Source: Halofilum ochraceum
GTDB lineage: Bacteria > Pseudomonadota > Gammaproteobacteria > XJ16 > Halofilaceae
Assembly: GCF_001614315.2 (NCBI RefSeq)
Contig: NZ_LVEG02000021.1
Coordinates: forward strand, 1 to 64,000
Reading direction: 5' to 3'
Length of the DNA: 64,000 bases
The notes under the pieces are model-generated. The model was not told where the DNA came from, ran no database searches, and saw only the letters and a program-made list of their open reading frames with translations. Position numbers and translations under genes: made by a program. This document shows positions 3,712 through 45,343 of this stretch, one piece after another (the first letter of the stretch is position 1; each line of letters starts with the position of its first letter).

Positions 3712-4038
3712 ATGGCCAGGATGGCCCGACTCGTAGTGCCACAGCATCCACATCACGTCACGCAGCGCGGCAACCGGCGCCAGCTGGTTTTCTTCGATGA
3801 TGATGACTACCGCGCCTATCTCGACCTCGTGCGTGACGCCTGCGACATGGCGCATACGCAGGTCCTCGCCTACTTTCTGATGCCCAACCATGTGCACTTT
3901 CTGATGGTGCCGAGTCACGAGGATGGGCTGAGTGCCGCGATCGAGGAAGCGCATCGACGCTACACGCGGCGCGCTACGCGTGGGCGACCGGGGCGTCCGC
4001 GCAATAAGGGTGGCCCGGAATCAGGCAGCATCATGTAG
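3712..4038 (+). pseudogene. Truncated REP-associated tyrosine transposase (RAYT, Y1 HUH family)
   Basis: The N-terminus MARMARLVVPQHPHHVTQRG and the segment YFLMPNHVHFLMVP are hallmarks of RAYT proteins. HVH is the metal-binding HUH motif, and the Tyr in HRRYTRR is the expected nucleophile. Family members are usually about 200-240 residues. Here the frame departs after RRYTRR into an Arg/Gly-rich tail and stops at 108 residues, so the C-terminal half is missing. RAYTs normally act on REP hairpins, and REP-like hairpins are present at 28612-28690. Probably inactive. Confidence 0.8.
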
Positions 4039-4303
4039 CCGCAAAGGGGTGGGTGGCCAATAAACGTGATCTGTTCTTTACTACCATCGAAACCACGATA
4101 CGGTACGGTGCCGTTATGAGGAACGGCGTGGCTCGCTTGAAGTGTTGGGGTGGGGGCACGGGAGCGCTCGGGAAAAGATGACGTGTAAATACGCAACGAC
4201 TTCGCGTTGAGCATCCCGTGAGCGGCCGCAATCGAATGCGTCATGGGGTGGCGTCGCCCCTGTTTACATGTCCGGCGCCCGGTTGATCAGCGAGGCGGAA
4301 ACA

Positions 4304-19970: not shown

Positions 19971-20858
19971 ATGGCGTTGCTCTGGATCGTAACCCTGGTC
20001 TGGGCGTTCAGCTTCTCGTTGATCGGGGTGTACCTGTCGGGGCAGGTGGACGACTTCGTCTCCGTGTTCCTGCGGGTGGCGGTGGCGTGTGCGGTGTTCG
20101 CGCCTCTTTTGGTGCGGAGCCGCCCGGGTAGGAGGGCGGCGGTGTCGCTGATGGTCATCGGTGCGGTGCAGATAGGGGTTATGTATCTGTTCCTGTTCCA
20201 CGCTTATGGTTACATGAGCGTGCCTGAGCTGTTGCTGTTCACGATCTTCACGCCGCTGTACGTGACGTTGATCGACGAGGTGTTGATCGGCCGACATCAT
20301 TTGCCCGGGCACTTCTGGCTGGGGGCGGGACTCGCCGTGGGTGGGGCGGGGATCATTCGTTTCGGGGCGGTCAGCGCGGACTTCCTGACGGGGTTCTGGT
20401 TGGTGCAGGCAGCCAATCTTTGCTTCGCCGCGGGACAGGTGGCCTACAAGCGCCTGGACCTGGGTAGCACGGTGTCGCAGGTTCAGATGTTCGGCCTGTT
20501 TTTCCTGGGGGCGACGCTTGTCGCCGGCTCGGGTGTGTTGCTGTTTGCGGAGCACGCGCGCTGGCCGTCCACGATGGTTCAGTGGGGCGTTGTCCTTTGG
20601 CTGGGGGTCGGTGCGTCAGGTCTGGGGTACCTGGGCTGGAACCTGGGGGCTAAACGCGTCAATACCGGCCAGCTGGCGGCGATGAACAACATGCTCATCC
20701 CCGCCGGCATAGTGGTGAATTTCGTTTTCTGGAATCGCGACGTTGACTGGTTACGGGGACTTGTCGGCGGTCTGGTGATCGGACTGGCGGTGTGGATCTG
20801 TCGCGGCTCGTCCCGGGCGGTGGCCGATACACTCAGGGCCGATGTTGGTCGCGATTGA
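19971..20858 (+). CDS. EamA-family (DMT) transporter
   Basis: A 295-residue inner-membrane protein with ten predicted helices in two homologous halves, as in the EamA/RhaT branch of drug/metabolite transporters. Helix 1 contains the usual WxxxF (IVTLVWAFSFSLIGVYLS), and the second half repeats the pattern (GVGASGLGYLGWNLGAKRV, AAMNNMLIPAGIVVNFVFW). Members export amino acids or related metabolites. The start at 19971 follows AAGGAAGGG. It is monocistronic and no substrate can be named. Confidence 0.85.
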   Translation: MALLWIVTLVWAFSFSLIGVYLSGQVDDFVSVFLRVAVACAVFAPLLVRSRPGRRAAVSLMVIGAVQIGVMYLFLFHAYGYMSVPELLLFTIFTPLYVTLIDEVLIGRHHLPGHFWLGAGLAVGGAGIIRFGAVSADFLTGFWLVQAANLCFAAGQVAYKRLDLGSTVSQVQMFGLFFLGATLVAGSGVLLFAEHARWPSTMVQWGVVLWLGVGASGLGYLGWNLGAKRVNTGQLAAMNNMLIPAGIVVNFVFWNRDVDWLRGLVGGLVIGLAVWICRGSSRAVADTLRADVGRD

Positions 20859-21028
20859 CCCTGTTGCTTCACAGGGCTGTGGGGGAGGGACCGCGGAATC
20901 ATCGCGGGCGTCTGGAGGGTCCAGGTACCGCCGGTTCCGGGGTTCGGGGTGGCACAGGATTTGCCTTTGGATCGAAGTGCCGTGTGAGTGCACGTGACCT
21001 CCGCAAGCGATCCAACGGAAAAACGCCC

Positions 21029-22774
21029 ATGTCCTCCGAATCGGGGTCGGCGGCGCTCGCCGCCAGAAACCACAACGATCTCGTATCCCTGCTGCACCGG
21101 GCAAGTCCCGTTGCGCCGGCGCACGTAGGGGACCAGCTCGTCACGGATGGCGTCATCACCCGCGAAACGCTGGAGTCGATGCTCCGCGAGCAGAGCCGCG
21201 GGCCGCGGCAGCGTCTTGGCCAGATGCTGATCGAGCGCGGCCTCGCATCCGAAGAGCAGGTCCAGCAGGCGGTTGCCCGGCGGCTCGGCATTCCCTTCGT
21301 GCACCTCGCCGACTTCGCCATCGATCCGCATGCCATCTCGATGGTCGATCCGGATTTCGCGCGTAACCACGCGGCCATTCCGCTGATGCTCGACGGTCAC
21401 AACCTGATCGTGGCGACGGCTGAAGCGGGCGACCGGGAACTGGTCGATCTGCTGCAGTTCATCACGAATCACCACGTGACGCTGGTCGCCGCGACCGGCG
21501 CCGATATCGACTACGCGATCAGCATTACGTACGGGGCGTTCGACGATGACACCCTGGTCGAGGAGGTTGAGCGGATCACTCGGCCCCTGGAACACCATGA
21601 CGGCCACCGCGACGAACCGGCCAACTGGCGCCCGCTGGTGCGCCTGGTACAGAACATTGTCATCGATGCCATTCGACGCCGGGCCTCGGACATTCACATC
21701 CGCCCCTGCGAGCGCGAGGCACAGGTGATCTTCCGCATTGACGGTTCGCTGGTGCCGATCCGGCAGATCAGCAAGTCGGCACTGCCTTCCATCGTCAGCC
21801 GGATAAAGGTGCTCGGTGGTATGGATATCTCGGAGCACCGACTGCCTCAGGATGGCCAGGCACGGATCAGCAACCGCGGCCGGGTCATCGACCTGCGCCT
21901 GTCGGTGATTCCCACCGTCCACGGGGAGAGCGTCGTGATCCGCATCCTCGATGCTTCACACGGCCTCAAGAGCCTGGACGGGATCGGTTTCAACGCCGTC
22001 GACGAGCGTCGGTTCCGTAATCTCCTGTCACAAAACCAGGGCTTGATTCTGGTGACCGGGCCGACCGGATCCGGCAAGTCGACCACGCTGTATGCCGCAC
22101 TGCAGGAAGTGCGGAAACGCGATGTCAATATCGTCACGGTCGAGGACCCGGTGGAGTACCACCTCGATGGCATCAACCAGATCCAGGTCATGTCGCAGAT
22201 TGGCTACACGTTCCCGCGTGCGCTGCGCCACATACTGCGGCACGATCCCGACGCGATCATGGTCGGCGAGGTGCGTGACGCGGAGACGGCGCGCATGGCG
22301 GTCGAGTCGGCGCTCACCGGACACCTCGTGTTGTCGACGCTGCACACGGAAAGCGCCACCAGATCGATTACGCGGTTGCTGGAGATCGGTGTTGATCCCT
22401 ATCTCGCTCGGACCACACTGTCGGGGATCCTCGCGCAGCGCCTGGTCCGTCTGAACTGCCCCTACTGCGTCGTCGCCGAGGACGTCGACGACGAAGTCCG
22501 CGCCGAGCTCGATCTCGGGCCGGATGCCGCATTCCGCCGCGGCAAGGGCTGCGAGCATTGCTACAACACCGGCTTCCGGGGGCGACACGCCGTCTATGAG
22601 CTGCTTACGGTGACGCCCGGGCTGCGCGAGCTCGTTCATGCCGGTGCGGATGCCGCCGAGCTCGAGCGCCAGGCCTGCGCGGACGGGATGGTTCCGCTCA
22701 CGCGTAACGCGCTCGACCTCGCCCGTAGCGGCCAAATACCGGTCGCCGAGGTCTACCGGGTTCGTCTGACCTGA
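21029..22774 (+). CDS. PilB/GspE/MshE-type secretion ATPase, orphan
   Basis: A 581-residue cytoplasmic ATPase of the type II secretion/type IV pilus assembly family. The N-terminal domain (about 25-120) fits the MshEN c-di-GMP-binding fold: VGDQLVTDGVITRETLESML and RLGQMLIERGLASEEQVQQA are two successive motif-like segments. The C-terminal motor has the Asp box (DIHIRP), Walker A GPTGSGKST, His box (HLVLSTLHT), Walker B (AIMVGEVRD) and a tetra-cysteine zinc site (CPYC...CEHCYNTG). No pilin, secretin or PilC/GspF gene is nearby, so the rest of its machine must lie elsewhere. A GTG about 16 codons upstream is an alternative start. Confidence 0.9.
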   Translation: MSSESGSAALAARNHNDLVSLLHRASPVAPAHVGDQLVTDGVITRETLESMLREQSRGPRQRLGQMLIERGLASEEQVQQAVARRLGIPFVHLADFAIDPHAISMVDPDFARNHAAIPLMLDGHNLIVATAEAGDRELVDLLQFITNHHVTLVAATGADIDYAISITYGAFDDDTLVEEVERITRPLEHHDGHRDEPANWRPLVRLVQNIVIDAIRRRASDIHIRPCEREAQVIFRIDGSLVPIRQISKSALPSIVSRIKVLGGMDISEHRLPQDGQARISNRGRVIDLRLSVIPTVHGESVVIRILDASHGLKSLDGIGFNAVDERRFRNLLSQNQGLILVTGPTGSGKSTTLYAALQEVRKRDVNIVTVEDPVEYHLDGINQIQVMSQIGYTFPRALRHILRHDPDAIMVGEVRDAETARMAVESALTGHLVLSTLHTESATRSITRLLEIGVDPYLARTTLSGILAQRLVRLNCPYCVVAEDVDDEVRAELDLGPDAAFRRGKGCEHCYNTGFRGRHAVYELLTVTPGLRELVHAGADAAELERQACADGMVPLTRNALDLARSGQIPVAEVYRVRLT

Positions 22775-31691: not shown

Positions 31692-31889
31692 ATGAGCAAA
31701 TGGATTCGGGTTGAAATGATTCGCCTGTTCCGTGGCGAAGAGGGTACGGAGGTCGTCGAATGGACGCTGGTCGCCGGCCTGATCGTGGCGATCGCCGCGG
31801 CGACGTTCCTTGCCATCGGTCAGGACGTCGATGCCGTTTTCACGGCGATCGAAGCGAACACGCAGCAAGCGGCGGACAACGTCCAGTAA
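31692..31889 (+). CDS. flp: Flp-type prepilin (major Tad pilin)
   Basis: A 65-residue prepilin. The leader MSKWIRVEMIRLFRGEEG should be cut after the final Gly by the TadV peptidase, leaving about 47 residues that begin TEVVEW and continue into a hydrophobic helix (TLVAGLIVAIAAATFLAIG). The Flp consensus is G/xxxxEY; here Tyr is replaced by Trp. The ATG at 31692 has AGGAGA upstream at good spacing. It is the first gene of the Tad operon and is followed by a strong hairpin that may raise its mRNA level over the assembly genes. Confidence 0.88.
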   Translation: MSKWIRVEMIRLFRGEEGTEVVEWTLVAGLIVAIAAATFLAIGQDVDAVFTAIEANTQQAADNVQ

Positions 31890-31951: not shown

Positions 31952-32515
31952 ATGACAATCATGATTGCTACGATGCCCGCGTATCTTCTGATGTTGCTTT
32001 GGATCGCGGCGGCGGCCGACGTCCGCGGGCGCCGTGTACCGAACTGGCTGACGCTGGGCGGTGCCGTCGTCGGCGTGATACTGCAGATGGCATACGCGGG
32101 GATCGGTGGGCTCACCACTGCGGCGGCCGGATTCCTGGTCGGCGCGTTGATTCTGATGCCGGGGTTCCTGCTCCGGGCGACCGGGCCCGCCGATGTCAAA
32201 CTGCTGGCGGCCGCGGGTACCGTACTGGGGCCGTACCACGTCCTCATTGCGGGATTCTCAAGCATTCTTGTCGGCGCGGTAATCGCCATCGGCATCGCGA
32301 CCGCCACGCTGGCCATGCGCGCTGCCCGGTCTCCTTGGCATCGATATGCGGTCATGCTCCGCACGCTTTCCGTAACCGGACGCCCGGTCTATATCCCGCC
32401 GGCGGCCGATGAAGTCATGGCGACGCGCTTCCCCTTCGCGGTCGCGATCGCCCTGGGTGCAACACTGACGGCGGCCTGGGCGGGTCTGCTCGGCGGCATT
32501 GGAGTCCAGCCATGA
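31952..32515 (+). CDS. tadV: Flp prepilin peptidase (TadV/CpaA)
   Basis: A 187-residue inner-membrane aspartic protease of the A24 family. The two catalytic Asp residues lie in AAADVRGRRVPNWL and in TGPADVKLLAA, matching the short CpaA/TadV form that lacks the N-methylase domain. It processes the Flp prepilin and probably the TadE pseudopilin. ATGs at 31952 and 31961 are both possible. Its stop overlaps the ATPase start by four bases (ATGA), showing translational coupling. Confidence 0.88.
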   Translation: MTIMIATMPAYLLMLLWIAAAADVRGRRVPNWLTLGGAVVGVILQMAYAGIGGLTTAAAGFLVGALILMPGFLLRATGPADVKLLAAAGTVLGPYHVLIAGFSSILVGAVIAIGIATATLAMRAARSPWHRYAVMLRTLSVTGRPVYIPPAADEVMATRFPFAVAIALGATLTAAWAGLLGGIGVQP

Positions 32516-33843
32516 GCACCGGCCACTCCGTGCCCGCTGTCGAACGCGCCACTGGCGCCTATGACGGGTTCGAGGACGATCGCGACTTTATGGCGCGTCC
32601 GCTCACGACCGATGACACCGGTCTGGGAGAAGGCTATCTCGCCGACCTGGTGGTCAAACACCTCTATGGCGCCGGCGTCCTCGACCTTGGCGAACTCGCC
32701 GCGCGGATGGCGCTCTCGGGCGCACTGCTCGAGGAGGTGCTGGGATTCCTGCGCACGGAGGGGCAGGTCGAGGTGCGCGGTGCCGTCAATCACAGCGGCC
32801 TGCTCCGTTACTGCGTGACCGACCGCGGCCGTGCGTCCGCGCTTGAAGCGCTCGCACGCGATGGCTACGTGGGCCCGGCCCCGATAACACTCGCCGACTA
32901 CCAGCTCATGGTGAAGCGCCAGAGCGCAAAGGCGGACAGCGTGACGCGCGCCGCGGTCCACCGGGTGTTCGCCGATACGGTCATACGGCCTGAACTGCTG
33001 GACCGGCTTGGACCGGCGCTTCATTCCGAACGGGCGATGTTCCTTTACGGCGCACCCGGTACCGGCAAGAGCTTCATCGCCCGTCGACTGTCGCGTCTGT
33101 TGTCCGGATCGATTTTCGTCCCGCATGCCGTGATGGTCGCGGACAAGGCCGTACGTTGTTTCGATCCCGGGCTGCACCGTGTCGCGCCGGACGAGGCATC
33201 CGGATCCCCGGTGGCGCTGAAAGAGGGTTTCGATCGGCGTTACGTCCGCTGTCAGCGTCCGATCGTGACCACTGGCGGCGAACTGACGCTCGACATGCTC
33301 GACCTGCAATACGACGAGGCGACACGGGTTCATCACGCACCGCCGCAGCTCAAGGCCAACGGCGGGCTGCTGGTGATCGATGACCTCGGCCGCCAGCGCG
33401 TCGATCCGATCGATCTGTTCAACCGCTGGATCGTACCGCTTGAGGAAGGCCGCGACTTCCTTGCGTTGCGCAACGGTCAGCACTTCGAGGTGCCGTTCGA
33501 TCTGACGCTCGTGTTCTCCACCAACAGGGATCCGCTGGAACTGGCCGATGAGGCGTTCCTGCGACGGATCGGCTACAAGATCCGCTTTGATGCGATGACG
33601 GCGGATGCATATACCGCGATATGGCGGCAGGAATGCGAACGCCGTGGACTCGAATTCGATCCGGCGATCGTGGAGTACGTCATCGCGGATCTGCATGGAC
33701 ACGACCAGGTCCCACTCCTGCCGTGCCATCCGCGCGACCTGATCGACTTGGCCGTGAACCGAAGCCGTTACACCGGCGAAGAAACGCTGACTCCCGAGGC
33801 CATGGACTGGGCCTGGGGCACCTATTTTGTACGACTGGATTGA
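32512..33843 (+). CDS. Tad-locus AAA ATPase with winged-helix-like N-terminus
   Basis: A 443-residue soluble protein. Residues about 40-115 look like a winged helix (GVLDLGELAARMALS, VLGFLRTEGQVEVRG, RYCVTDRGRASALEAL). After the linker YVGPAPITLADYQLMVKRQS comes an AAA domain with Walker A GAPGTGKS (180-187), Walker B LLVIDDLG (Asp290-Asp291), sensor-1 VFSTNRDP and an arginine-rich segment EAFLRRIGYKIRF. It is not one of the canonical Tad proteins: TadA and TadZ are separate genes here. Its position, overlapping tadV and 15 bases before rcpC, implies a role in pilus assembly or its control. Confidence 0.8.
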   Translation: MSTGHSVPAVERATGAYDGFEDDRDFMARPLTTDDTGLGEGYLADLVVKHLYGAGVLDLGELAARMALSGALLEEVLGFLRTEGQVEVRGAVNHSGLLRYCVTDRGRASALEALARDGYVGPAPITLADYQLMVKRQSAKADSVTRAAVHRVFADTVIRPELLDRLGPALHSERAMFLYGAPGTGKSFIARRLSRLLSGSIFVPHAVMVADKAVRCFDPGLHRVAPDEASGSPVALKEGFDRRYVRCQRPIVTTGGELTLDMLDLQYDEATRVHHAPPQLKANGGLLVIDDLGRQRVDPIDLFNRWIVPLEEGRDFLALRNGQHFEVPFDLTLVFSTNRDPLELADEAFLRRIGYKIRFDAMTADAYTAIWRQECERRGLEFDPAIVEYVIADLHGHDQVPLLPCHPRDLIDLAVNRSRYTGEETLTPEAMDWAWGTYFVRLD

Positions 33844-33858
33844 TTGGGGATGCATGTC

Positions 33859-34647
33859 ATGAAAAAGAGCACGCGGTTGGTTTCGATGCTGGGGGTTTCG
33901 CTGGTCATGGCCCTGGGGGCCGCGCTGCTCGCCAAGCACTGGCTGCAGGACAGGCTCAACGTACAGGCCGCCCCGGCGGCGGATACCCGATCGGTCGTGG
34001 CCGCGACGCGGGACATCCCCTTCGCCCAGACGATCGAGTCGACGGATCTGCAGGTGATCGAACTGCCGCACCACGCGATACCGAAAGGCAGCTTCGTATC
34101 GATCGATGATGTGGCCGGCGCGGTTGCTACCCAGACGATCTACGGCGGTGAGGTCGTGGTCGGAAAACGGATCGGCAAGAACCTCGGTGGCAGTGCGCTC
34201 GCGGTGGTCGTCGACAAGGGCAAGCGGGCGATCAGCGTGCGCGTGAACGATGTCGTGGGGGTGGCGGGTTTCCTGCTGCCGGGCAATCGCGTGGACGTGC
34301 TGGCATCGAAGGGCGCGGCACGACGTGACGTCAGCTCCGAGACCATCCTCACCGATATCAAGGTCCTCGCCGTCGACCAGATCGTTTCGCCGGAGAAGGA
34401 CGAACCGGTGATCGTCCGCGCCGTGACGCTGGAGGTGACACCGACACAGGCGGAAAAGATCGTCAAGGCGACCCGCGAGGGCGAAGTGCAGCTCACGCTG
34501 CGCAATCCGCTCGATCAGGAACCGGATGTAAAACCGGAACCCGAGCCGCAAAAGGTCGTCAAGCGGACGGTGTACAGAGGACCGAAACATGTGCATGTGC
34601 AGGTGATCCGTGGCACGGACGTAAGTTCAGAACGGGTCAAGGAATGA
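33859..34647 (+). CDS. rcpC: Tad pilus assembly protein RcpC/CpaB
   Basis: A 262-residue envelope protein with one N-terminal membrane segment (LVSMLGVSLVMALGAALLAK). A SAF-domain region follows (SVVAATRDIPFAQTIESTDL, then YGGEVVVGKRI), and then the RcpC/CpaB core (RAISVRVNDVVGVAGFLLPG, ADVLASKG-like NRVDVLASKG). It is thought to connect or modulate the secretin in the periplasm. The ATG at 33859 is chosen because GGGGA lies seven bases upstream. The final residues overlap an ATGA that could start the next gene. Confidence 0.87.
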   Translation: MKKSTRLVSMLGVSLVMALGAALLAKHWLQDRLNVQAAPAADTRSVVAATRDIPFAQTIESTDLQVIELPHHAIPKGSFVSIDDVAGAVATQTIYGGEVVVGKRIGKNLGGSALAVVVDKGKRAISVRVNDVVGVAGFLLPGNRVDVLASKGAARRDVSSETILTDIKVLAVDQIVSPEKDEPVIVRAVTLEVTPTQAEKIVKATREGEVQLTLRNPLDQEPDVKPEPEPQKVVKRTVYRGPKHVHVQVIRGTDVSSERVKE

Positions 34648-34712
34648 ACAGGTCATTCTTGACGGCGCCGCCAAACCGGCCGGCAAAACAATGGAGTGTG
34701 GGGAGAGAAACA

Positions 34713-36395
34713 ATGAGGATGAGGGGCAAACTGAACGGGTTGAGCGCCGCGATCGCCGCCGCCGTATTGGGCAGTGTGGCGACAGGCGACCTTTATGCGC
34801 AATCGTCGGTCGTAACTGCGCCGCTTGACCGTGACGAGCGGTCGTGGCGGACGCTGGCGCAGAACGATCAGGGCAACTCGATGGAGGAGCGCATCCGACG
34901 ACGGATGCAGGCGACTACACCGATGACGGTCATGCCCTACGAGGGTGCGACGGTGCCGGTCAAGGTGGCGATCAACAAGTCGCACGTGCTCGAGTTCCCG
35001 GAAGGAGTTCAGCGTGTATCGATCGGCAACTCCGACATCGCGGATATCCTTGTTGTCCGCTCACGCCAGCTGTACGTGGTCGGCAAATCGATCGGGAGCA
35101 CGAATGTCGTGGTCTGGGACGCCAATGACCGCGTGCAGGGGGTACTGAATGTCGAGGTCACGCAGGACCTCGCCGTGCTCAAGGCGAATCTCCATCAGTT
35201 GTTGCCGGGTGAGCCCGTGGAGGTGAGGTCGTCTTACGGCACGATCGTGCTCAGTGGACAGGTTTCGAGCGCGCCGCGCATGGAGGCGGCGTTGCGTCTC
35301 GCGAACAGTTTCCAGAGCGCGCAGCGAAGTGAGAAAGCGCCCGAAGTACTCAACATGATGCAGGTCGGCGGAGCCCAGCAGGTGATGCTGGACGTCAAGG
35401 TCGCCGAGGTCTCCAGAACCCTGATCAAGCGCTTGAACATCCAGTTCAGCGCCTTCGGTGCGGACGGCTCCTGGAAGCTCGGCGCGGTCAACGGTGGCGC
35501 CGCTTTCCCGGACGCGGTCTTCGACAGTCTGAGCGGGGACGCGCGCATTCCGATTTTCACGGATCCCACTCCGATCGGACCGGCCGTCGAGGAGTTTGCC
35601 CCGAACACGCCCTCCATCGAAAACGCGGGGATCTTTGCCAGCCGCCTGACCGGCAACTCCGTGTTCAACATGGTCATCGATGCGGCCAAGAATGAGGGGC
35701 TTGCCCGCATTCTGGCCGAACCCAACCTGACGACGTTGACGGGGCAGAACGCCGAGTTCCTCGCAGGCGGCGAATTTCCGATTCCGGTACCGAGCGGCGA
35801 CGGCGATGTGGGGATCGAATTCAAGGAGTTCGGTGTCGAACTCGATTTCCGGCCGGTGGTGCTCGACTCCGGCGTTATCAATCTCGACGTCGATGTCTCG
35901 GTGTCCGATCTGGTCACGAGCAATGCCATCGCCGTGGGCTTCCAGACCGATGTATCGCAACAGTTCTTTATCCCGTCGCTGGTCAAGCGCAGCGCGAGTT
36001 CGACAGTCGAACTCGAAAGCGGCAAGACCATCGCGATCGCGGGAATGATCGACGAGAGCCTGCGCGAGAACGTGAACAAATTCCCGGGGCTGGGCGAGTT
36101 GCCGATCATCGGGATGCTGTTCCGCAGCCAGGAATACATCAAGGATCAGACCGAACTCGTCATATTCGTGACTCCGCGGCTCGCGAAACCGATCGCGGTG
36201 GAACGTATGCGGTTGCCGACCGATGACTTCGTCGAACCGACGGGCCTCGAGTACTACCTGCTGGGACGGCACTCGATGCGGCGGCAGGACTCGGGTGAGG
36301 AACGCGATGCCGACCGTCCCGCCAGCCTCGAGTCGCGCCTGACGGCGATGGGCGGCGGATCCGAAGGCCGGTTCGGCCACGATCTCGGGCGTTGA
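34713..36395 (+). CDS. rcpA: Tad outer-membrane secretin RcpA/CpaC
   Basis: A 560-residue secretin. The signal peptide spans about residues 1-30 (AAAVLGSVATGDLYA). The N-terminal domain has the pilus-formation strand set (VAINKSHVLEFPEGVQRVSI, RQLYVVGKSIGSTNVVVWD), a BON-like segment follows, and the secretin core is clear (ILAEPNLTTLTGQNAEFLAG, GGEFPIPVPSG, FGVELDFRPVV, LPIIGMLFRSQ). It forms the outer-membrane channel for the pilus. GGGGAGAG supports ATG 34713; an ATG at 34644 overlapping the rcpC stop would bury the signal peptide. Confidence 0.9.
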   Translation: MRMRGKLNGLSAAIAAAVLGSVATGDLYAQSSVVTAPLDRDERSWRTLAQNDQGNSMEERIRRRMQATTPMTVMPYEGATVPVKVAINKSHVLEFPEGVQRVSIGNSDIADILVVRSRQLYVVGKSIGSTNVVVWDANDRVQGVLNVEVTQDLAVLKANLHQLLPGEPVEVRSSYGTIVLSGQVSSAPRMEAALRLANSFQSAQRSEKAPEVLNMMQVGGAQQVMLDVKVAEVSRTLIKRLNIQFSAFGADGSWKLGAVNGGAAFPDAVFDSLSGDARIPIFTDPTPIGPAVEEFAPNTPSIENAGIFASRLTGNSVFNMVIDAAKNEGLARILAEPNLTTLTGQNAEFLAGGEFPIPVPSGDGDVGIEFKEFGVELDFRPVVLDSGVINLDVDVSVSDLVTSNAIAVGFQTDVSQQFFIPSLVKRSASSTVELESGKTIAIAGMIDESLRENVNKFPGLGELPIIGMLFRSQEYIKDQTELVIFVTPRLAKPIAVERMRLPTDDFVEPTGLEYYLLGRHSMRRQDSGEERDADRPASLESRLTAMGGGSEGRFGHDLGR

Positions 36396-36668: not shown

Positions 36669-36707
36669 ACAGGCAGGCGGCAACCGCTCTGCGGAGGATT
36701 GTCAGAC

Positions 36708-37895
36708 ATGCACTACCGATTGAACGTGCTCGTCGCGGGCAGCTCCGCAAGCGATATCGAGCAGCTTGAGCAGAAACTTCGGCACAACGACAACGTGGCC
36801 GTCCGGCGCAAGCACATCGTCAATGGCCATGCCGATCCATTGCATGACTGTGACGAACTACCGGACGCACTGGTGCTTTCGGTGTCCGGCGGGGGGCATG
36901 CGCAACTGGCGGCGTTGACCGAGCGTGGCGCCGCCCAGCGCCCGCCGCTGCTGGTGGTCGGGCCGCCTGGCAACGTCGACCTCATCCGGACATCCATGCG
37001 TGCCGGGGCGCGTGACTTCCTCGAGGCGCCTGTGTCCGCAACCGATCTGGATCGGTTTATCGATCAGGTGGTGAATGATCGTCGTGCGGAACGGGCGAAA
37101 CGCCGCGCGCGGTTGACCGCGGTGATCAATGCCAAGGGCGGGGCGGGTGGCAGCATGGTGGCGGCCAATCTCGCCCGCAATTCAGCCGCGCGGCCGCACG
37201 GACGTACGCTGCTCATGGACCTGGATGTGCAGTTCGGGACGCTGCCGCTCTACTTCAACCTGGTGCCGCGCAACGGCCTGGTTCGGGCATTGGAACTGGT
37301 CGAGAGTATCGATGCCGTCGCGCTCGAAGGGTACGTGATGTGCCACGAAAGTGGCCTTGACCTGATCGCTTCGGCGCCGGATGACCTCGTGCTTCCCGCT
37401 GAAATTCCCGAGGAACGTATCGATCAGTTGCTCGACGTGGTCGGCTCCGCCTACGACGATATCTTCGTGGATCTGCCGCGCTGGATCGCGGGATCCACGG
37501 CGGTGGTACTCGACCGTGCGGACCGGATACTGATCGTGCTCCAGCAGAGTGTCGCCCACCTGCGCGATACCAAGCGGATGACGCGGATTCTGCAACACGA
37601 CATGGGGGTTGCCGCTTCGCGCCTGGCGCTGGTGGTGAACCGCTTCGACAAGCGCAACGCGGTGACGGAACGCGATATCCGGGAAGCGTTGCCGGCGCTT
37701 GAGCTCTTCACGTTGCCGAATGACTACCGGCTGGTGACGGAGAGTATCAATATGGGCAGCCCGCTCCGTGATCTTTCAAGACGGGCGGCCGTGACCCGAG
37801 ACCTCGAAACGCTCACGGCGAGCATCGGTCGCAGCGAGGGGATAAGCCCGACGGCTCATACCCGGCGATCGCTTTTTTCATGGCTGAGGGCCTGA
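36708..37895 (+). CDS. tadZ: Tad polar localisation ATPase TadZ/CpaE
   Basis: A 395-residue cytoplasmic protein. The N-terminal 125 residues form a degenerate receiver-like domain (RLNVLVAGSSASDIEQLEQK, MRAGARDFLEAPVS). The rest is a MinD/ParA-type ATPase: INAKGGAGGSMVAANLA is the deviant Walker A with its signature Lys143, LLMDLDVQFGTLPLYF is switch I, and DDIFVDLPRW is Walker B. TadZ proteins direct the pilus apparatus to one pole. The ATG at 36708 is favoured by GGAGGA upstream. Confidence 0.9.
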   Translation: MHYRLNVLVAGSSASDIEQLEQKLRHNDNVAVRRKHIVNGHADPLHDCDELPDALVLSVSGGGHAQLAALTERGAAQRPPLLVVGPPGNVDLIRTSMRAGARDFLEAPVSATDLDRFIDQVVNDRRAERAKRRARLTAVINAKGGAGGSMVAANLARNSAARPHGRTLLMDLDVQFGTLPLYFNLVPRNGLVRALELVESIDAVALEGYVMCHESGLDLIASAPDDLVLPAEIPEERIDQLLDVVGSAYDDIFVDLPRWIAGSTAVVLDRADRILIVLQQSVAHLRDTKRMTRILQHDMGVAASRLALVVNRFDKRNAVTERDIREALPALELFTLPNDYRLVTESINMGSPLRDLSRRAAVTRDLETLTASIGRSEGISPTAHTRRSLFSWLRA

Positions 37896-37899
37896 CGTG

Positions 37900-39273
37900 A
37901 TGGAAACCGATTTCGGGATGAACCGGAACGAAAACGCCGATCGGACTTCGAATCGGACCTCATGGCAACGCCGCTTCGAGCGTACCGGTGCGCTTCGCCT
38001 GTCCGGCGAGGAATACGAAGCCAAGCGGCGGATCTTTCAGCGCCTGGTGAAGGTGTTGGACCTCTCCCTGATCGCGAGTCTGTCCGACGAAGAGGCCCGC
38101 TCACAGATCCAGCAGAACGCCGAAACGATCATGGGCGACGAGGCGTTGCCGTTCAACGCCGAACTCAGGCGGCGGATCATCAACGAGCTGCAGGACGAGA
38201 TACTGGGCCTCGGCCCGCTCGAGCCGCTGCTCGCAGACCGCTCCGTTTCCGATATCCTGGTCAACGGTGACAAGACGGTCTACGTCGAGCGCAACGGCCG
38301 GCTTGAGCGCACTGCGGTACGGTTCGACAGCGAACAGCATCTGCGCACGATCATCGACCGGATCGTATCGAGCGTCGGCCGCCGCATCGACGAGTCTTCG
38401 CCCATGGTGGACGCCCGCCTCAAGGATGGCTCGCGCGTGAACGCGATCATACCGCCATTGGCGATCGATGGGCCGCTGCTGTCGATCCGGCGGTTTTCGG
38501 TCGAGCAGTTGACCATGGAGAGCCTGATCGCACTCGGTTCACTCACGGGGCCGGTCGCGCGGCTGCTCGAGTCGATCGTCAAGGCGCGCCTGAACGTGCT
38601 TGTCTCCGGTGGCACGGGCGCCGGGAAGACGACCCTCCTCAATGTGCTGTCGGGATTCATACCGGCCAGCGAACGCATCGTGACGATCGAGGATTCGGCC
38701 GAACTGCAGCTACAGCAGCCGCACGTCGTCCGCCTTGAAACGCGGCCGGAGAACGTCGAGGGCAAGGGCGCGGTGACCCAGCGCGACCTCCTGCGCAACA
38801 GTCTTCGCATGCGCCCCGATCGGATCATTGTCGGTGAGGTGCGTGGTGCTGAAGCGCTGGACATGCTCCAGGCCATGAATACGGGTCACGACGGTTCATT
38901 GACGACGGTCCATGCCAACACGCCACGCGACGCGTTGACGCGTATCGAGAGCATGGTGGCCATGAGCGGGGTGGAATTGCCCCAGGGCCCCCTGCGCTCG
39001 CAGATCGCCTCGGCGCTGGACGTGGTTCTGCAGATCGAGCGCAATGAGGATGGGACGCGACGCCTGCACAGCGTCCAGGAAATCCAGGGACTGGAAGGCG
39101 AAGTCATCACCATGTCCGAGATCTTCCGCTTCGAGCGACGGGGCATCGGCGACGATGGACGGGTACAGGGTCGGTTCACCGCGACCGGCATCGTCCCCCG
39201 CTTCCAGGAGCACCTGCGCAGCCACGGCGTCGATCCGGGCCTCGAAATCTACCGCCCCGGCGAGGAGACCTGA
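37900..39273 (+). CDS. tadA: Tad pilus assembly/retraction ATPase TadA/CpaF
   Basis: A 457-residue hexameric secretion ATPase. Walker [10 protein letters not shown] lies at about 237-245, the Asp box at [17 protein letters not shown], the His box at [14 protein letters not shown] and Walker B at [13 protein letters not shown]. The N-terminal helical region ([20 protein letters not shown]) matches the CpaF/VirB11-like family. It powers pilus polymerisation through TadB and TadC. It begins five bases after the tadZ stop with GAGGG at good spacing, so it is tightly coupled. Confidence 0.93.
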
Positions 39274-39276: not shown

Positions 39277-40260
39277 ATGGAATGGGGAATCTCGGACCAG
39301 CTGATCGTCATCAGCATGATCTTCGTTGCCGTGTTTCTGCTCGTGCAGTCGTTCATGGTCCCCGCGTTCGGAGAAAACCGCCAGGCGCGGAATCGCCTCC
39401 GCCAGCGTCTGCGCAGCATGGCCGATGACGACAGGGCGGGTGCGTCCATTTCACTGGTCCGCAGCGAGTATCTGGGCAAGCTGTCGCCATTTGAACAGAC
39501 GCTCCAGCGTCTCCCCGGGATGCGGCGGCTCGATCGCATGCTCGAGCAGGCAGGGCGGCGAACGCCGGCCTACCGGGTGGTCCTGCTGTCGCTGCTTCTG
39601 GGGAGTGGTGTCACGCTGCTTGTGGTGCAGCTGATCGGCAGTGCGTTGATCGGGATCGCGGCCGGTATTGCCGCGGCATCATGGCCGGTCTTCCGGTTGA
39701 AGATCGAAAAGGCCCGGCGGCTGGCCCGGTTCGAGGAACAGTTCCCCGACGCGCTGACCGTCATGGCACGTGCGCTCAGGGCCGGGCACCCGTTCACGGG
39801 GGCGCTGCAGCTCGTCGGCGAAGAGTTGCAGGCCCCGGTCGGGACCGAATTCGCGAACACCTTCACCGAGATCAACTACGGGGGCGAGGTGCGCGTGGCG
39901 CTGGTGGGAATGCTCGACCGCGTGCCGAGCGTCACGGTCATGGCGTTCGTGAGTTCCGTGCTGGTACAGCGCGACACGGGGGGAAATCTCGCGGAACTCC
40001 TGGAGCAGCTCGCGGCCGTCGTCCGGGGGCGGTTCCGGTTCCACCGCAAGCTTCGTACGCTCTCGGCGGAAGGCCGCATGGCGGCTTGGATACTGGTCCT
40101 GATGCCGTTCGCGCTGGCCGGTGTCCTGTCCTGGGCGAATCCCGAGTTCCTGCCGATGCTGACGACCGATTCGACCGGGCGCCAGCTCGTTATGGTGGCG
40201 TTCGCCCTGATGATCGTCGGGATTCTGTGGCTCCGGCGCATCATCCGGATCGATGTGTAG
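39277..40260 (+). CDS. tadB: Tad inner-membrane platform protein TadB
   Basis: A 327-residue inner-membrane protein of the GspF/PilC-like superfamily, Tad branch. Hydrophobic helices lie at about 8-28, 105-150 and 275-325. The F-domain is RLARFEEQFPDALTVMARAL, ALRAGHPFTGALQLVGEEL and SVLVQRDTGGNLAELLEQL. It forms the platform with TadC on which TadA acts. It starts four bases after the tadA stop. Confidence 0.92.
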   Translation: MEWGISDQLIVISMIFVAVFLLVQSFMVPAFGENRQARNRLRQRLRSMADDDRAGASISLVRSEYLGKLSPFEQTLQRLPGMRRLDRMLEQAGRRTPAYRVVLLSLLLGSGVTLLVVQLIGSALIGIAAGIAAASWPVFRLKIEKARRLARFEEQFPDALTVMARALRAGHPFTGALQLVGEELQAPVGTEFANTFTEINYGGEVRVALVGMLDRVPSVTVMAFVSSVLVQRDTGGNLAELLEQLAAVVRGRFRFHRKLRTLSAEGRMAAWILVLMPFALAGVLSWANPEFLPMLTTDSTGRQLVMVAFALMIVGILWLRRIIRIDV

Positions 40261-40272: not shown

Positions 40273-41250
40273 ATGGATCAATTGCTGAGCGCATTCTTCG
40301 GTCTCCTCCACGGCTTGACCACGCAGCCCGAGATGGCCCAGCTCGGTTTCGCCGCCATGCTCGGGGTCGCGGTCTTTGTACTTATGGTCGCCGTACTGCT
40401 GCTGGCGACCAGCATCCTCCAGCCGATCCGGTCCCGGCTGCGTCGGCTGGATGCCGAGGATGAAGAGCCCGCTGCCGCGAATGCGCCATTGATCGAACGG
40501 CTGGTTGAACCCATCGGTAATCTGATGCTTCCACGCGCGGAGGAGAGCCGTATACGGGCGAATCAGCGCCTGCGCCACGCCGGGATTCTGTCTTCCGGCG
40601 CGCTCAGCACCTATTTCGGCGTGAAGTTCCTGCTCGCGGTGTTGCTGCCGGCGATCGCGGTGACGCTGTTGCTTGGTTTTACGCGGATGCCGGGGGCACC
40701 GGTGTTGCTGTTCGGCGTGGCGGCCGCGATTGCCGGTTATCTGGCGCCCAACGTCTGGCTCGAATTCGCGGTTCGCGAGCGCACGCGCAGGATACGCCAC
40801 GGCCTCCCCGACGCCCTTGATCTGCTCGTGGCCTGCAGCGAGGCCGGACTCGGCCTCGTCGCGGCCATCCAGCGTGTCGCGGCCGACCTCGAGATCAGCC
40901 ACCCCGAACTGGCCGCCGAACTGCGCCTGTTCGGGATGCAGACCCGTGCGGGCATGAGCAACCGCGATGCGCTGCGCGATCTTGAACACCGCACCGGCGT
41001 GGAGGACGTGCGGGGTCTTGTAACCACGCTGCTGCAGAGTATGCGCTTCGGTACGAGTATCGCTTCGACCCTGCGCATCTATTCCGAAGAAATTCGCGAC
41101 AAGCGTATCCAGCGCGCCGAGGAGCATGCCGCCAAGGTGGGTACCAAGATGCTTTTCCCGCTGGTGCTGTGCATTTTCCCGAGTTTCTTCGTGGTGACGC
41201 TGGGACCGCCCATCCTTGGAGCGGTTCGCGCGTTGAGTGGTTCCGGCTGA
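40273..41250 (+). CDS. tadC: Tad inner-membrane platform protein TadC
   Basis: A 325-residue partner of TadB with the same fold. Helices lie around 20-52, 110-165 and 290-320. The conserved cytoplasmic core reads RIRHGLPDALDLLVACSEAG, GLVAAIQRVAADL, LMQSMRFG-like LLQSMRFGTSIASTLRIYSE and KVGTKMLFPLVLCIFPSFFV. A ribosome-binding site GAGGAG precedes the start by several bases. Together with TadB it probably anchors the ATPase and gathers pilin subunits. Confidence 0.92.
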   Translation: MDQLLSAFFGLLHGLTTQPEMAQLGFAAMLGVAVFVLMVAVLLLATSILQPIRSRLRRLDAEDEEPAAANAPLIERLVEPIGNLMLPRAEESRIRANQRLRHAGILSSGALSTYFGVKFLLAVLLPAIAVTLLLGFTRMPGAPVLLFGVAAAIAGYLAPNVWLEFAVRERTRRIRHGLPDALDLLVACSEAGLGLVAAIQRVAADLEISHPELAAELRLFGMQTRAGMSNRDALRDLEHRTGVEDVRGLVTTLLQSMRFGTSIASTLRIYSEEIRDKRIQRAEEHAAKVGTKMLFPLVLCIFPSFFVVTLGPPILGAVRALSGSG

Positions 41251-41281
41251 ACATGGACCCGGCAAGGGGGAGGTGGGATCA

Positions 41282-42235
41282 GTGAGTGCTTCATGCAGAA
41301 CAAAAACAACCAGGACCGTGGCCATGGCCGCGGCTGCGCTTGTGCTCGCCGGCTGCGCGACGCGATCGCCGTCCGAACGCAGTGACGATGTCTTCTCGAT
41401 TCTGTACGAGGGGAAATCGACCGCGCAGTTCGCCACGTCGTTACCGGTCGGATCGCCCGCGGAGGCCGAGGCACGGGGCGATGCCGCCGCGCGCGACGGC
41501 GAGCTGGACGAGGCGATCTTCGAGTACGTGCGCGGGTTGCGCATCGCCGAGAAAGGATCGCCCGGTATGCTCTACAAGATCGGGATGATTCATGAGCGGC
41601 AGAGCAACACCGAGCTCGCCGCGATTGCCTATCGCTGGGCACTTCGCGCGGATCCCGGACACAGGCCCTCGACGACCCGCCTGGGTCTCATGCTGCTGCG
41701 TCATCGCCAATACGAGGCCGCCGAGCATCGTCTGCGACCCATCGTGGAATCCGGGGCACCGTTCTGGCTCGCGCACAACGGCATGGGCGTGTTGTGTGAT
41801 CTGCGTGGTGATCACCACCAGGCCGCGAACCATTATCGCGACGCCCTCCGGTTCAATCCCGACTCGGCGCTGGTCATGAACAATCTCGGCTACTCGCTGT
41901 ACATGGCGGGAGACTGGGCTGGCGCCGAGAAGATGTTACGGGCGGCCCTGGAGCGTGAAGAGAATTACGACCTGGCCTGGCGCAACCTCGCATTGGTGTG
42001 GGCGCGCAGCGGGGAATACCAGGAGGCCATCGCCGCGCTCCAGCGAACCTCGTCGACCGAGGCTGCCTACAACGACCTGGGCTACGTCGAGATGATGGAT
42101 GGCAATTATCCGGTAGCAACGCGTTTGTTCCACCAGGCCATGGATATATCGCCCCGCTACTATGAGATGGCGGTGGAAAATGAGCGTCGTGCGCAGCGGC
42201 TTATGACCAGAGAGCGTGATCTGGCAAGGCAGTGA
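41282..42235 (+). CDS. tadD: Tad TPR lipoprotein TadD
   Basis: A 317-residue protein starting at GTG with GGGGGAGG upstream. The signal ends in the lipobox LAGC (VAMAAAALVLAGCATRSP), so it is an outer-membrane lipoprotein. Tetratricopeptide repeats follow from about residue 65 (YKIGMIHERQSNTELAAIAY, LVMNNLGYSLYMAGDWAGAE, AWRNLALVWARSGEYQEAIA). In Tad systems TadD acts as a pilotin-like or scaffolding factor for the secretin. It sits 31 bases after tadC. Confidence 0.9.
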   Translation: MSASCRTKTTRTVAMAAAALVLAGCATRSPSERSDDVFSILYEGKSTAQFATSLPVGSPAEAEARGDAAARDGELDEAIFEYVRGLRIAEKGSPGMLYKIGMIHERQSNTELAAIAYRWALRADPGHRPSTTRLGLMLLRHRQYEAAEHRLRPIVESGAPFWLAHNGMGVLCDLRGDHHQAANHYRDALRFNPDSALVMNNLGYSLYMAGDWAGAEKMLRAALEREENYDLAWRNLALVWARSGEYQEAIAALQRTSSTEAAYNDLGYVEMMDGNYPVATRLFHQAMDISPRYYEMAVENERRAQRLMTRERDLARQ

Positions 42236-42283: not shown

Positions 42284-42745
42284 ATGAATAGGAAATGCAG
42301 GCGCTGGCAAAAGGGCACGGAACTTGTCGAGTTCGCGTTCACCTCGATATTCCTGTTTATGCTCCTGTTTGGAATTATCGAGTTCAGCATCGTGCTGTAC
42401 GACAAGGCGACGATCACCAACGCCAGCCGCGAAGGGGCGCGGACCGGCATCCTGTTTCGCCAGGGGACGCGGACCATCGGTGGCCTCACGAGTGAAGATG
42501 ATGCCATCGAGGCGGCGGTACGGGACTATGCGGACGCTTACCTTATATCCCTTGGGGGGCCGGCAACGCTGGACGTACAGATTCAGCGTACTGATCGTAA
42601 TGGAGATGGCGCCTTCAACGCCGGTGATGAACTTACGGTGAGCGCAATTTACCCGTACGATTTCCTGCTCCTGCCGGCCTTCGCGAATTCGATGATCGGC
42701 GGCGTTCGGAACATCGCCGCTACTTCGGTGATGCGTGCGGAGTAG
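42284..42745 (+). CDS. tadE: Tad minor pseudopilin TadE
   Basis: A 153-residue protein with a short charged leader and a type IV-like cleavage site: KG, then TELVEF, then a hydrophobic helix (AFTSIFLFMLLFGIIEFSIV). The Glu at position +5 of the mature form is retained, so it should be processed by TadV. The remaining domain (ATITNASREGARTGILFRQG and beta strands) is the TadE-like fold. It is probably a minor subunit at the pilus base or tip. Confidence 0.88.
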   Translation: MNRKCRRWQKGTELVEFAFTSIFLFMLLFGIIEFSIVLYDKATITNASREGARTGILFRQGTRTIGGLTSEDDAIEAAVRDYADAYLISLGGPATLDVQIQRTDRNGDGAFNAGDELTVSAIYPYDFLLLPAFANSMIGGVRNIAATSVMRAE

Positions 42746-42778
42746 ATGGTGCATTGTTCAACCAGAGGAGATTTCGCA

Positions 42779-44017
42779 ATGCGACCCCATGATCCGTCCC
42801 GCATTGGTCCGGGCCGACAGCGAGGCGTATCCCTTGTGCTGCTCGCGGTTTCCATCGTGGCGTTGATTGGCTTTTCGGCGCTCGCGATCGACACGAGCAA
42901 CCTGTACGTGGCGCGGAACGAGTTACAGAACGGCGCGGACGCGGGGGCTCTCGCCGGTGCGCGTGTGCTGTATCTCAACGATGGGTCGGCAGTCAATCCT
43001 GGCGCCAATCAGGTCGCATCCGATACCGCGATATCAAACGACAGCCAGGGGACGCCGGTCGAGGTTGCGAGCGTGCGTCGCGGACACTGGAGCTTCGCGA
43101 CGCGAACATTCACGCCCAACCCTTCTCTCGATGTGGTGGATCTTTTCGGGAAAAGCACGGCGGAACTCGATGCGGACCCCAACTTCATCAATGCCGTCGA
43201 GGTGATCACCGAACGCGCGGCGACGCCGATTGCGGCGTTCTTCGGCTTTATTTTCGGATTTTCCGACTATTCAAGCCAGGCCCGCGCCGTTGGCTACATC
43301 GGCTTCGCCGGGAAACTCCGTCCCGAGGACGTGGATCAACCGATCGCGCTCTGTGAGAGCGCGCTGCGCAATCCCGATGGGGAGTACTCGTGTAACCTCG
43401 GGCGTTTCATCCCGGAAGGCGATCAGACCGGTGGGTGGACCAACTTCGAGCATGACCAAAGCGGTGCGACCAACGCCAATGAACTGCGCGACCTGGTGGA
43501 GGGTGATGGCAATCCGAACGAGATGAACTACGGTGAGAACATCGCTACCAACAATGGCCAGGTACAGTCGGCGTTCAAGGCATTTTATGACCGCTGGGTG
43601 GACGAGACGGATCGCGAACGGCCCTGGAACATGACGCTGCCGGTCATCGACTGCGACGACGGTATCGCACCGAATAATCCGCTGGTGGGCGCGGTCACGG
43701 TCAACGTCATGTGGGTAATCAATAATAACCAGAACCTGAGCCAGATCGACACGCATGCCCCGCAGGTCATGGGCGGTGGCGCGGATCTGGAGGATCCCGA
43801 ATGGCCGGGTGACTGGGCGAACGCCAGTCCGAGCGGGAACGAGCGCTGGGACAGTTTCACGGATCATTTCGCGCTACAGGATTCGGCGGGACAGCCGGCG
43901 GACTGGCGGAATATGAGTATCTACTTCCTGCCCAGCTGCAGCGCGCATCAACCGTCGGGGTCTACGGGGGGGGAGAACTTCGGTGTACTGGCACGGATAC
44001 CCGTCCTCGTTGACTGA
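42779..44017 (+). CDS. tadG: Tad pilus assembly protein TadG
   Basis: A 412-residue protein anchored by one N-terminal helix (GVSLVLLAVSIVALIGFSAL) with the TadG signature directly after it (AIDTSNLYVARNELQNGADA, GALAGARVL). The long periplasmic part carries four or more Cys residues (ALCESALRN, SCNLGRF, VIDCDDG, LPSCSAH), suggesting disulfides, but no metal-dependent adhesion motif is obvious. It is the last gene of the operon. The ATG at 42779 has AGAGGAG upstream. No separate tadF is seen. Confidence 0.87.
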   Translation: MRPHDPSRIGPGRQRGVSLVLLAVSIVALIGFSALAIDTSNLYVARNELQNGADAGALAGARVLYLNDGSAVNPGANQVASDTAISNDSQGTPVEVASVRRGHWSFATRTFTPNPSLDVVDLFGKSTAELDADPNFINAVEVITERAATPIAAFFGFIFGFSDYSSQARAVGYIGFAGKLRPEDVDQPIALCESALRNPDGEYSCNLGRFIPEGDQTGGWTNFEHDQSGATNANELRDLVEGDGNPNEMNYGENIATNNGQVQSAFKAFYDRWVDETDRERPWNMTLPVIDCDDGIAPNNPLVGAVTVNVMWVINNNQNLSQIDTHAPQVMGGGADLEDPEWPGDWANASPSGNERWDSFTDHFALQDSAGQPADWRNMSIYFLPSCSAHQPSGSTGGENFGVLARIPVLVD

Positions 44018-44036: not shown

Positions 44037-44948
44037 CTACGGCGGGAACGGCCGCAGCGTCTGCGTCGCCGGCACCGTGAGCAGGTTTTCGGGAGGTGGC
44101 GGTGTGTCGCCGAGGGCCTCCCTGTCCTCCTGCGCCGCCTTCCGGGCCGTGAGGCGGTATGCGGACGGTGTGCTGCCGACGTATCGATGGAACGTGCGCG
44201 TGAAGTAAGACGGGTCCCTGAACCCGACGTTGTAGCACACGTCCGAGATGGAAACGCCTGGATGGTGGAGCAGACGCATGGCCTCGTTGATCCGGCGCCG
44301 CAGCACGTACTCCTGAAATGTCATCTCGAAGTGTCGCTTGAACGACCGGCTGAACTGGAATGGACTGAGTCCGCTGATCGCGGCGACTTCCCGCTGCAGG
44401 ATTTTGTTGTGCAGGTTACGGTCGATATGGGCGAGGACGGCATCCAGTGCGGGCAAGGGGTCCGGAACGCCGGCATGGGGCCGCATTCGCGTTTCGCGTG
44501 GAAAGCCCTGCGGCGCATCGACGATCCGACGCTTTTCCGGGCCGCGCGAGGTGTCATGGCCGGCCTTGGACAACATGAGCTCCGCGAGTGCGTGCAGCAC
44601 CGCCTGGAAACGGTCGTGATCGATCGGGTGGACGAAGTAATCCCAGACGCGGGAGCGGAATGCCCAGACCGCGATCGCCTCCGAATGTCCGGAGGTGAGC
44701 ATCAGGATGGGCATCGAGGGCAATTCGCGCCGCGTGCGCTGGAGGTCCGCCAGACCGGGCAGGTCGGGGTAGTCGTAATCGAAGCAGACCACGAAGCAGT
44801 CGGACGCACGAATCCGCGGAACCGGATCGACGCCTTGCGGTACCGTCATGACGTGATATCCCAGGTGTTCAATCAGCCTGGCAGCAGGGCGATCCGAGAT
44901 CGGCCCCGCACCCCGCAAGGCAAGCAATACCGTGCCTGTGTTTCCCAT
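44037..44948 (-). CDS. AraC-family regulator with degenerate receiver domain
   Basis: A 303-residue protein. Residues 1-125 resemble a response-regulator receiver (VLLALRGAGPISDRPAARLI, CFVVCFDYDYPDLPGL, MPILMLTSGHSEA), but the usual acidic pair is missing and the conserved Lys-Pro is His-Pro (DYFVHPI). Phosphorylation-independent signalling is therefore likely. The C-terminal 105 residues are a double AraC HTH (EVAAISGLSPFQFSRSFKRH, ISDVCYNVGFRDPSYFTRTF). The start at 44948 follows GGGGGGAG. It converges on tadG, 19 bases away, and could regulate the pilus, though this is inferred from position alone. Confidence 0.85.
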   Translation of the reverse strand: MGNTGTVLLALRGAGPISDRPAARLIEHLGYHVMTVPQGVDPVPRIRASDCFVVCFDYDYPDLPGLADLQRTRRELPSMPILMLTSGHSEAIAVWAFRSRVWDYFVHPIDHDRFQAVLHALAELMLSKAGHDTSRGPEKRRIVDAPQGFPRETRMRPHAGVPDPLPALDAVLAHIDRNLHNKILQREVAAISGLSPFQFSRSFKRHFEMTFQEYVLRRRINEAMRLLHHPGVSISDVCYNVGFRDPSYFTRTFHRYVGSTPSAYRLTARKAAQEDREALGDTPPPPENLLTVPATQTLRPFPP

Positions 44949-45343
44949 GGGCGGCTCCCCCCGGTGCCGGTTGGCCCCCACCACACGCCGTCGCGACCGA
45001 TCCTGGCGATGCCGCAGTCACCGCCGTCACGAACGATATGAGTGTGGGAGGGCAAATTGTTGGTATGCGCGTTATATAGCACAGCCTGGGCGGGGCCGCC
45101 TGAAAACGTGCCCGTGCGGCACCGGTACCGGCCGGTTCTGGTGCGGGCATCGCCGGCGTCCGGCCCGCGGGTCAGCGCCGGAGTAATACCGTGTCCAGAA
45201 TCAGGATCACTCCGGCCGCCGGCGCTTGTGTGTCGTCGCGACGATGCCCGTGGACGGTCTGCCGGAGTCGAAGACTCCGGAGCACCCTTTTCCGGATCCG
45301 GCGAAGCGCAGTCCGATGTTTCGGGGCAAGTTACCGGAGCGGC
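44949..45343. other. Intergenic stretch without a supported gene
   Basis: Roughly 395 bases between the AraC-type gene and the 3' end of the DUF2182 gene, both on the minus strand. TATATAAC (about 45069-45077 on the minus strand) could be a -10 element for the AraC gene. The part near 45240-45310 is rich in CCGGA repeats. No protein is recognised. Confidence 0.45.

Follow-up and report, generated by a model that had tools for sequence, protein, structure and literature searches.

Structural and cell-biological studies of the Tad pilus have been built on Caulobacter, Pseudomonas aeruginosa and Aggregatibacter, and a related machine, that of type II secretion, has an AAA+ accessory in ExeA/GspA that can serve as a precedent. 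Two ATPases, TadA and TadZ, are given for the Tad machine in the accessible text of a type IV filament census (PMC6668835) and of a review (PMC10191384), from both of which a third ATPase is absent, and CpaF has been treated as a single bifunctional motor (PMC12019362). A further 'ATPase' appears in a genome survey (PMC7716237), the accessible text of which lists 'ATPases (PSF113_4189 and tadA)' for the Flp/Tad type B cluster of Pseudomonas fluorescens F113, places PSF113_4189 next to tadV and uses it as a type B marker, and gives it neither a family nor a domain, nor any wider distribution or function. When we searched the literature for a third Tad ATPase that had been named or tested, only this paper came up. 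At archaeal type IV pilus loci, MoxR/GvpN-type ATPases accompanied by vWA proteins have been predicted to modulate the pilus (PMC4858521).

Here, we analysed a 64,000-nt stretch of DNA (the window) that carries a Tad locus with an additional AAA+ gene at 32512-33843 (+), which we label AAAx. In our judgement, it is about evenly balanced whether AAAx is the dedicated cytosolic AAA+ protein of one Tad lineage, remodelling or activating the motor and platform and docking its client through a winged helix.

The Tad locus in the window

The Tad locus of the window is complete and has the order flp-tadV-AAAx-rcpC-rcpA-tadZ-tadA-tadB-tadC-tadD-tadE-tadG. AAAx lies within this operon, on the same strand as the other genes and with short gaps or overlaps between them.

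31692-31889, + strand, Flp pilin (custom Flp HMM, E 4e-27; no Pfam match)
31952-32515, + strand, tadV prepilin peptidase (Peptidase_A24, E 3e-16)
32512-33843, + strand, AAAx, AAA+ gene (443 aa)
33844-34647, + strand, rcpC (RcpC domain)
34644-36395, + strand, rcpA secretin (Secretin)
36699-37895, + strand, tadZ (AAA_31/CbiA, E 3e-8; TadZ_N, E 0.024, below cut-off)
37897-39273, + strand, tadA motor ATPase (T2SSE, E 1e-66)
39277-40260, + strand, tadB platform protein (T2SSF)
40273-41250, + strand, tadC platform protein (T2SSF)
41237-42235, + strand, TadD-like TPR protein (TPR)
42284-42745, + strand, tadE (TadE)
42746-44017, + strand, tadG (Tad, Tad_C)

The AAAx reading frame runs from an ATG to a TGA with no internal stops, and a chance ORF is excluded because homologues with 35-64% identity keep the frame across hundreds of genomes. 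A reading of this DNA made earlier from the sequence alone (hereafter the sequence-only reading) had described a four-base overlap with tadV, which is exact (tadV ends at 32515 and the ATGA is common to both genes), and had placed AAAx before rcpC, as is the case: it is followed by rcpC/cpaB (RcpC domain, E 2e-28), the real start of which is probably one of the ATGs shortly 3' of 33844. Both usual Tad ATPases that it named, tadA (T2SSE) and tadZ (AAA_31/CbiA), are present in the window. AAAx is, as it claimed, a third and non-canonical AAA+ ATPase inside the operon: assignment to the PilT/VirB11 motors, to which TadA/CpaF belongs, was rejected for want of a T2SSE match, and assignment to the TadZ/CpaE or MinD-like ATPases for want of a ParA, CbiA or AAA_31 match.

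Several neighbouring features were recorded. On the opposite strand, at the 3' end of the locus, an AraC-type gene with a receiver-like domain (44037-44984, -) is a candidate regulator of the tad operon. A promoter scan returned no hits above the chance level. A second T2SSE ATPase, of the PilB/GspE type and with a true MshEN domain, is encoded apart from the Tad locus at 20792-22774 (+). A gene of about 100 aa between rcpA and tadG (3764-4069 in locus L015, and relatives) is conserved in most AAAx loci, although none was detected in the window; in rhizobia, a hypothetical lipoprotein with a similar placement has been described (PMC10934763). Rhizobial Tad loci also carry an L,D-transpeptidase gene between tadZ and tadA (L015 8025-8588; L083).

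Architecture and relatives of the AAAx protein

An AlphaFold2 model of AAAx built with an alignment of 60 family sequences has a mean pLDDT of 92.2. Following a low-confidence start (the first ~20 residues), the model comprises a winged helix, the linker YVGPAPITLADY, an AAA+ module and a C-terminal helical lid. The features of the protein are given below, with invariance read from the same 60 sequences.

32629-32862, + strand, winged-helix domain, residues 40-117 (pLDDT >90 over most of it; MarR/AspA profile matches)
32866-32901, + strand, signature linker YVGPAPITLADY, residues 119-130 (Y119, G121 and P124 invariant)
33049-33072, + strand, Walker A GAPGTGKS, residues 180-187 (pattern G180-x2-GTGKS; G180, G183, G185 and K186 invariant)
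33367-33384, + strand, Walker B LLVIDD, residues 286-291 (D290 and D291 invariant)
33508-33525, + strand, sensor 1, residues 333-338 (N338 invariant)
33562-33567, + strand, R351-R352 of the FLRRI motif, candidate arginine finger (both invariant)

Walker B closes with DD and not DE, the second acidic residue being an aspartate, and the stretches around GGE (255-257) and GRQ (293-295) are likewise invariant, so that the family can be recognized by the signature YxGPAPVxLxxY plus IDDxGRQ. Membership of the AAA+ superfamily follows from Walker A, Walker B, sensor 1 and the arginine finger on an AAA+ fold; R351-R352 is a candidate for the last by analogy with its position in other AAA+ proteins. 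Judged from sequence, the conserved Walker A and B motifs, sensor 1 and Arg-Arg pair imply that AAAx would be an active, oligomeric ATPase. All three parts named in the sequence-only reading were thereby recovered, i.e., the winged-helix-like N-terminus by the model and the MarR/AspA profile matches, the linker as the family signature YVGPAPITLADY in 60 sequences, and the full AAA core by the invariant Walker A/B, N338 and R351/R352.

The winged helix (H40-54, H59-66, H70-82, E86-89, E99-102, H104-116 in the model) raises the main rival to a remodelling role, i.e., that AAAx is an ATP-dependent transcription regulator whose winged helix sits on flp/tad promoter DNA while the AAA+ ring controls oligomerisation, the operon thus regulating itself. 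MarR-like winged helices are usually DNA binders, which counts against a protein-docking reading, and the AAAx N-domain profile matches MarR, AspA and AdcR structures (E 7.5e-5 to 2e-4), with weak PadR or MarR_2 matches for single family members. Moreover, a regulator devoted to the operon would likewise be inherited along with it and need not be encoded beside it. Against this, the net character of the recognition helix across the 60 members is neutral to acidic and its outward positions are hydrophobic, a make-up that mildly favours protein binding over DNA binding. The slot between tadV and rcpC in gamma- and betaproteobacterial loci is also odd for a regulator, and a likely one exists already in the AraC HTH and receiver-domain gene at 44037-44984 (-). 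The GAFTGA loop is absent from the window protein and from all 60 aligned members, and AAAx is hence no sigma-54 enhancer-binding protein. Taken together, we regard the regulator as possible but rather doubtful; sequence matches and gene neighbourhood cannot themselves tell remodelling from regulation.

No curated family in Pfam, NCBIfam, PHROGs or PADLOC describes AAAx. In Pfam, AAA_5 alone passes its curated cut-off, over 25 residues of the P-loop (24.1 vs 22 bits); PADLOC gave nothing beyond P-loop-level matches, and PDB sequence searches gave generic AAA+ P-loops only. The closest solved fold is that of Pyrococcus furiosus Q8U0N8 (PDB 8p49; Foldseek E 4e-13, TM by target 0.54-0.63), which VIA-align superposes on model residues 50-440, part of the winged helix included (Z 17.9, rmsd 6.0, 291 residues), and the high rmsd suggests that the domains of the modelled protein may be placed differently. 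Q8U0N8 differs from AAAx in being archaeal, only 15% identical and itself uncharacterised, and the literature search found no paper on 8p49. The next solved folds, i.e., Lon, ComM, MCM, CbbQ, PspF and NorQ, have Z scores of 14-16, within which they cannot be ranked. That no relative with a solved structure has a tested function counts against the remodelling role, and no tested AAAx function was found in the literature search, beyond the reach of which lie most subscription journals.

Of the described groups, the MoxR-type proteins resemble AAAx in their AAA+ core (NorQ and CbbQ, Z about 14) and, together with bpMoxR and archaeal GvpN-like proteins, in being predicted activators or modulators, the role that we propose for AAAx. 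However, they differ from it in that AAAx has an N-terminal winged helix and its locus lacks a vWA partner. Of the models for these proteins, AAA_5 matches over the P-loop only (see above) and bpMoxR scores 23.3 bits against a cut-off of 27. Assignment as a MoxR protein with a paired vWA protein was rejected in view of TadG, a MIDAS motif being present in just 3 of 75 TadG ORFs; ORFs with vWA-like motifs were found in 5 of 88 AAAx loci. From ExeA/GspA, AAAx differs in that no peptidoglycan-binding domain was found and in that AAA_22 stays below its cut-off (19.1 vs 27).

Distribution and co-inheritance with the Tad genes

In order to place AAAx across genomes, we used a phylum sample of 398 genomes and a class sample of 369, with RcpC as the Tad marker. 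Full-length AAAx relatives were present in 52 genomes of the phylum sample and RcpC in 166. Of the 52, 50 also encode this marker (odds ratio 50 and p 4e-19 by Fisher test, the 398 genomes not being independent). In the class sample, all six genomes with full-length AAAx fall among the 53 with RcpC. AAAx is not a universal core gene of Tad loci: 116 of the 166 RcpC genomes are without it, and a family-profile search confirmed its absence in 29 of the AAAx-less genomes. Partial matches were set aside after reading of the sequences, i.e., an N-domain match to an ordinary MarR-like regulator (G671/G599) and AAA matches in five genomes (G121, G225, G239, G241, G260) to unrelated sequences that include a sigma-54 activator of a two-component system and further AAA+ or P-loop ATPases outside the family. 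Both AAAx and RcpC are absent from two genomes of the window's own genus (G001, G002), which shows that the Tad locus as a whole varies between members of that genus.

A scan of 84,980 species genomes returned at least 574 stretches encoding AAAx relatives, and the best 80 matches include Pseudomonadota, Myxococcota, Thermodesulfobacteriota, Acidobacteriota, Gemmatimonadota, Chloroflexota and Planctomycetota. AAAx is also carried by plasmids of Rhizobium, Sinorhizobium, Burkholderia, Paraburkholderia, Photobacterium and a few others, and those annotated copies that were examined lie in Tad loci. Three scans of 2.9 million viral contigs found no relatives, and a phage or mobile-element origin was rejected on these grounds.

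Amongst 122 family ORFs, 88 are accompanied within 16 kb by two or more core tad genes of the same strand; for three more, the contig end cuts the locus beside rcpC. On the family tree, the Tad-linked label changes five times, compared with 27.7 times in shuffles. The sequence-only reading had proposed a survey of Tad operons, with rarity and random placement as the outcome that would count against it; the survey gave the opposite on both points. The association with Tad loci is therefore upheld, but not as a feature common to all of them, since AAAx belongs mainly to one TadA lineage (see below). Also upheld is the statement that the gene has no assigned role, none having been found, although it had not gone wholly unnoticed, being listed as an unnamed ATPase in the accessible text of PMC7716237. 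In related Pseudomonas loci (L099-L108), AAAx occupies the same slot as PSF113_4189, which by its position is probably an orthologue.

Gamma- and betaproteobacteria have the order flp-tadV-AAAx-rcpC; AAAx follows tadC or stands at the 3' end of the operon in Rhodobacter-like and rhizobial alphaproteobacteria and in Acidobacteriota and Gemmatimonadota. These two positions suggest that the gene was integrated or rearranged more than once. They also bear on the proposal that AAAx works at the inner membrane as a chaperone or extractor, handling pilins or pseudopilins or aiding TadV processing. The ATGA overlap, the tadV neighbour in gamma- and betaproteobacterial loci and a positive AAAx/TadV partial correlation (0.23) are in keeping with such a role, but in the other groups the gene lies away from tadV, and we consider the proposal unlikely.

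Pairwise divergence of AAAx across 64 loci correlates with that of TadA (0.90), TadZ (0.91), TadB (0.91) and RcpC (0.83), figures that shared ancestry inflates throughout; correlations between Tad core proteins are 0.86-0.94 and the shuffled maximum is about 0.17. In a further 49 loci, partial correlations are highest with TadB, TadZ, TadV and TadA, which are also favoured over RcpA, about nil with TadC and negative with the periplasmic RcpC, and point weakly to the cytoplasmic side.

TadA trees were labelled with four classes of loci, and the figures given here are from the mixture-model tree; as the loci were not sampled at random, they are statements about lineages and not frequencies. The 65 loci that carry AAAx within the operon all fall inside one set of 87 rows (support 85), which also holds 17 loci from genomes with orphan copies and only five from AAAx-less genomes. 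A nested set of 75 rows (support 95) holds 55, 17 and three loci of these classes, respectively, and the last three indicate that AAAx can be lost. Two Tad loci of the AAAx-rich lineage, L174 (G581) and L176 (G605), lie in genomes without AAAx by profile and represent natural losses. P. aeruginosa-like and cpa-like alphaproteobacterial loci fall outside the set, and those sampled are without AAAx. The four second Tad loci of AAAx genomes are without AAAx and also fall outside the set, and thus AAAx follows the type of Tad locus and not the genome. AAAx is probably a real accessory of a Tad subtype and an overlooked working part of the machine.

AAAx is not confined to Tad operons, and the minority of family members away from tad genes counts against the remodelling role. 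Thirty-one of the 122 family ORFs lack tad linkage, a few of them being contig-limited or next to a Tad operon that runs the other way (L150, L163, L164). In 28 genomes with orphan copies that were examined, a close TadA was found in 23 and RcpC elsewhere in 22. In five genomes (G381, G562 and those of L144, L151 and L162, three MAGs), AAAx is present and neither RcpC nor a close TadA was detected, which means that some members must have a different task or work for a different machine. The neighbours of orphan copies showed no common partner. Tandem duplicates lie outside Tad operons at L065 8812-11857, adjoining a GAF-HD gene with an adenylate/guanylate cyclase not far off, at L067 8670-11662, and at L143 9782-12742, near a GGDEF gene. 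In a Fimbriiglobus genome, one copy seemed orphan (L156), and a further AAAx stands at the end of a Tad operon (L217, G756, about 10.8 kb).

Orphan copies with unrelated neighbours would fit a general housekeeping or defence AAA+ protein hitchhiking in Tad operons, as would a weak similarity to the anti-phage ATPase IetA/IteA. The latter assignment was rejected (22.4 bits vs a cut-off of 510), PADLOC families match at the P-loop level only, and the strong co-occurrence and co-divergence with Tad, the lineage specificity and the lack of viral relatives all oppose hitchhiking, which we hold to be very improbable.

A clade of 13 members (support 98) contains orphans from Nitrosomonadaceae, Desulfuromonadales and others, nearly all of which have an additional N-terminal segment. 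By hhalign, this segment aligns over 53 aa and at 34% identity (probability 94.8) with the MshEN part of the pilus/secretion ATPase encoded in the window, a resemblance of sequence and not membership, single members not reaching Pfam MshEN. An AlphaFold2 model of an MshEN-bearing orphan, made with no alignment, had a pLDDT of 35, and the MshEN reading therefore stands on sequence only. The N-terminus of the window AAAx, the first ~20 residues of which are of low confidence in the model, lacks an MshEN half-domain.

Proposed role of AAAx

In the remodelling role, AAAx would be a cytosolic ATPase, probably hexameric, with no membrane segment apparent. Its winged helix would serve as an adaptor that docks a protein client, presumably among TadA, TadB and TadZ, and not DNA. 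ATP would be spent on remodelling or activating the TadA-TadB assembly, with TadZ, e.g., in order to load, reset or gate TadA as a bifunctional motor. Such a role would be similar to the activation of targets by MoxR-type AAA+ proteins, and the predicted modulation of archaeal type IV pili by MoxR/GvpN-type ATPases (PMC4858521) is a precedent for it. In a bolder version, which we consider improbable, AAAx would be a clutch, the missing switch that flips TadA between extension and retraction under second-messenger tuning. The MshEN-like segment fused to the orphan clade might then sense c-di-GMP directly, and operon-borne AAAx might receive such input via another protein.

Present models of how Tad pili are assembled lack a component if a third ATPase is used by a large Tad lineage that covers gamma- and betaproteobacteria and extends to other phyla. 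AAAx also opens to test the question of how one motor, CpaF/TadA, performs both extension and retraction (PMC12019362). Finally, a previously unnamed family gains a context, a signature (the linker and IDDxGRQ motifs given above) and tractable hosts.
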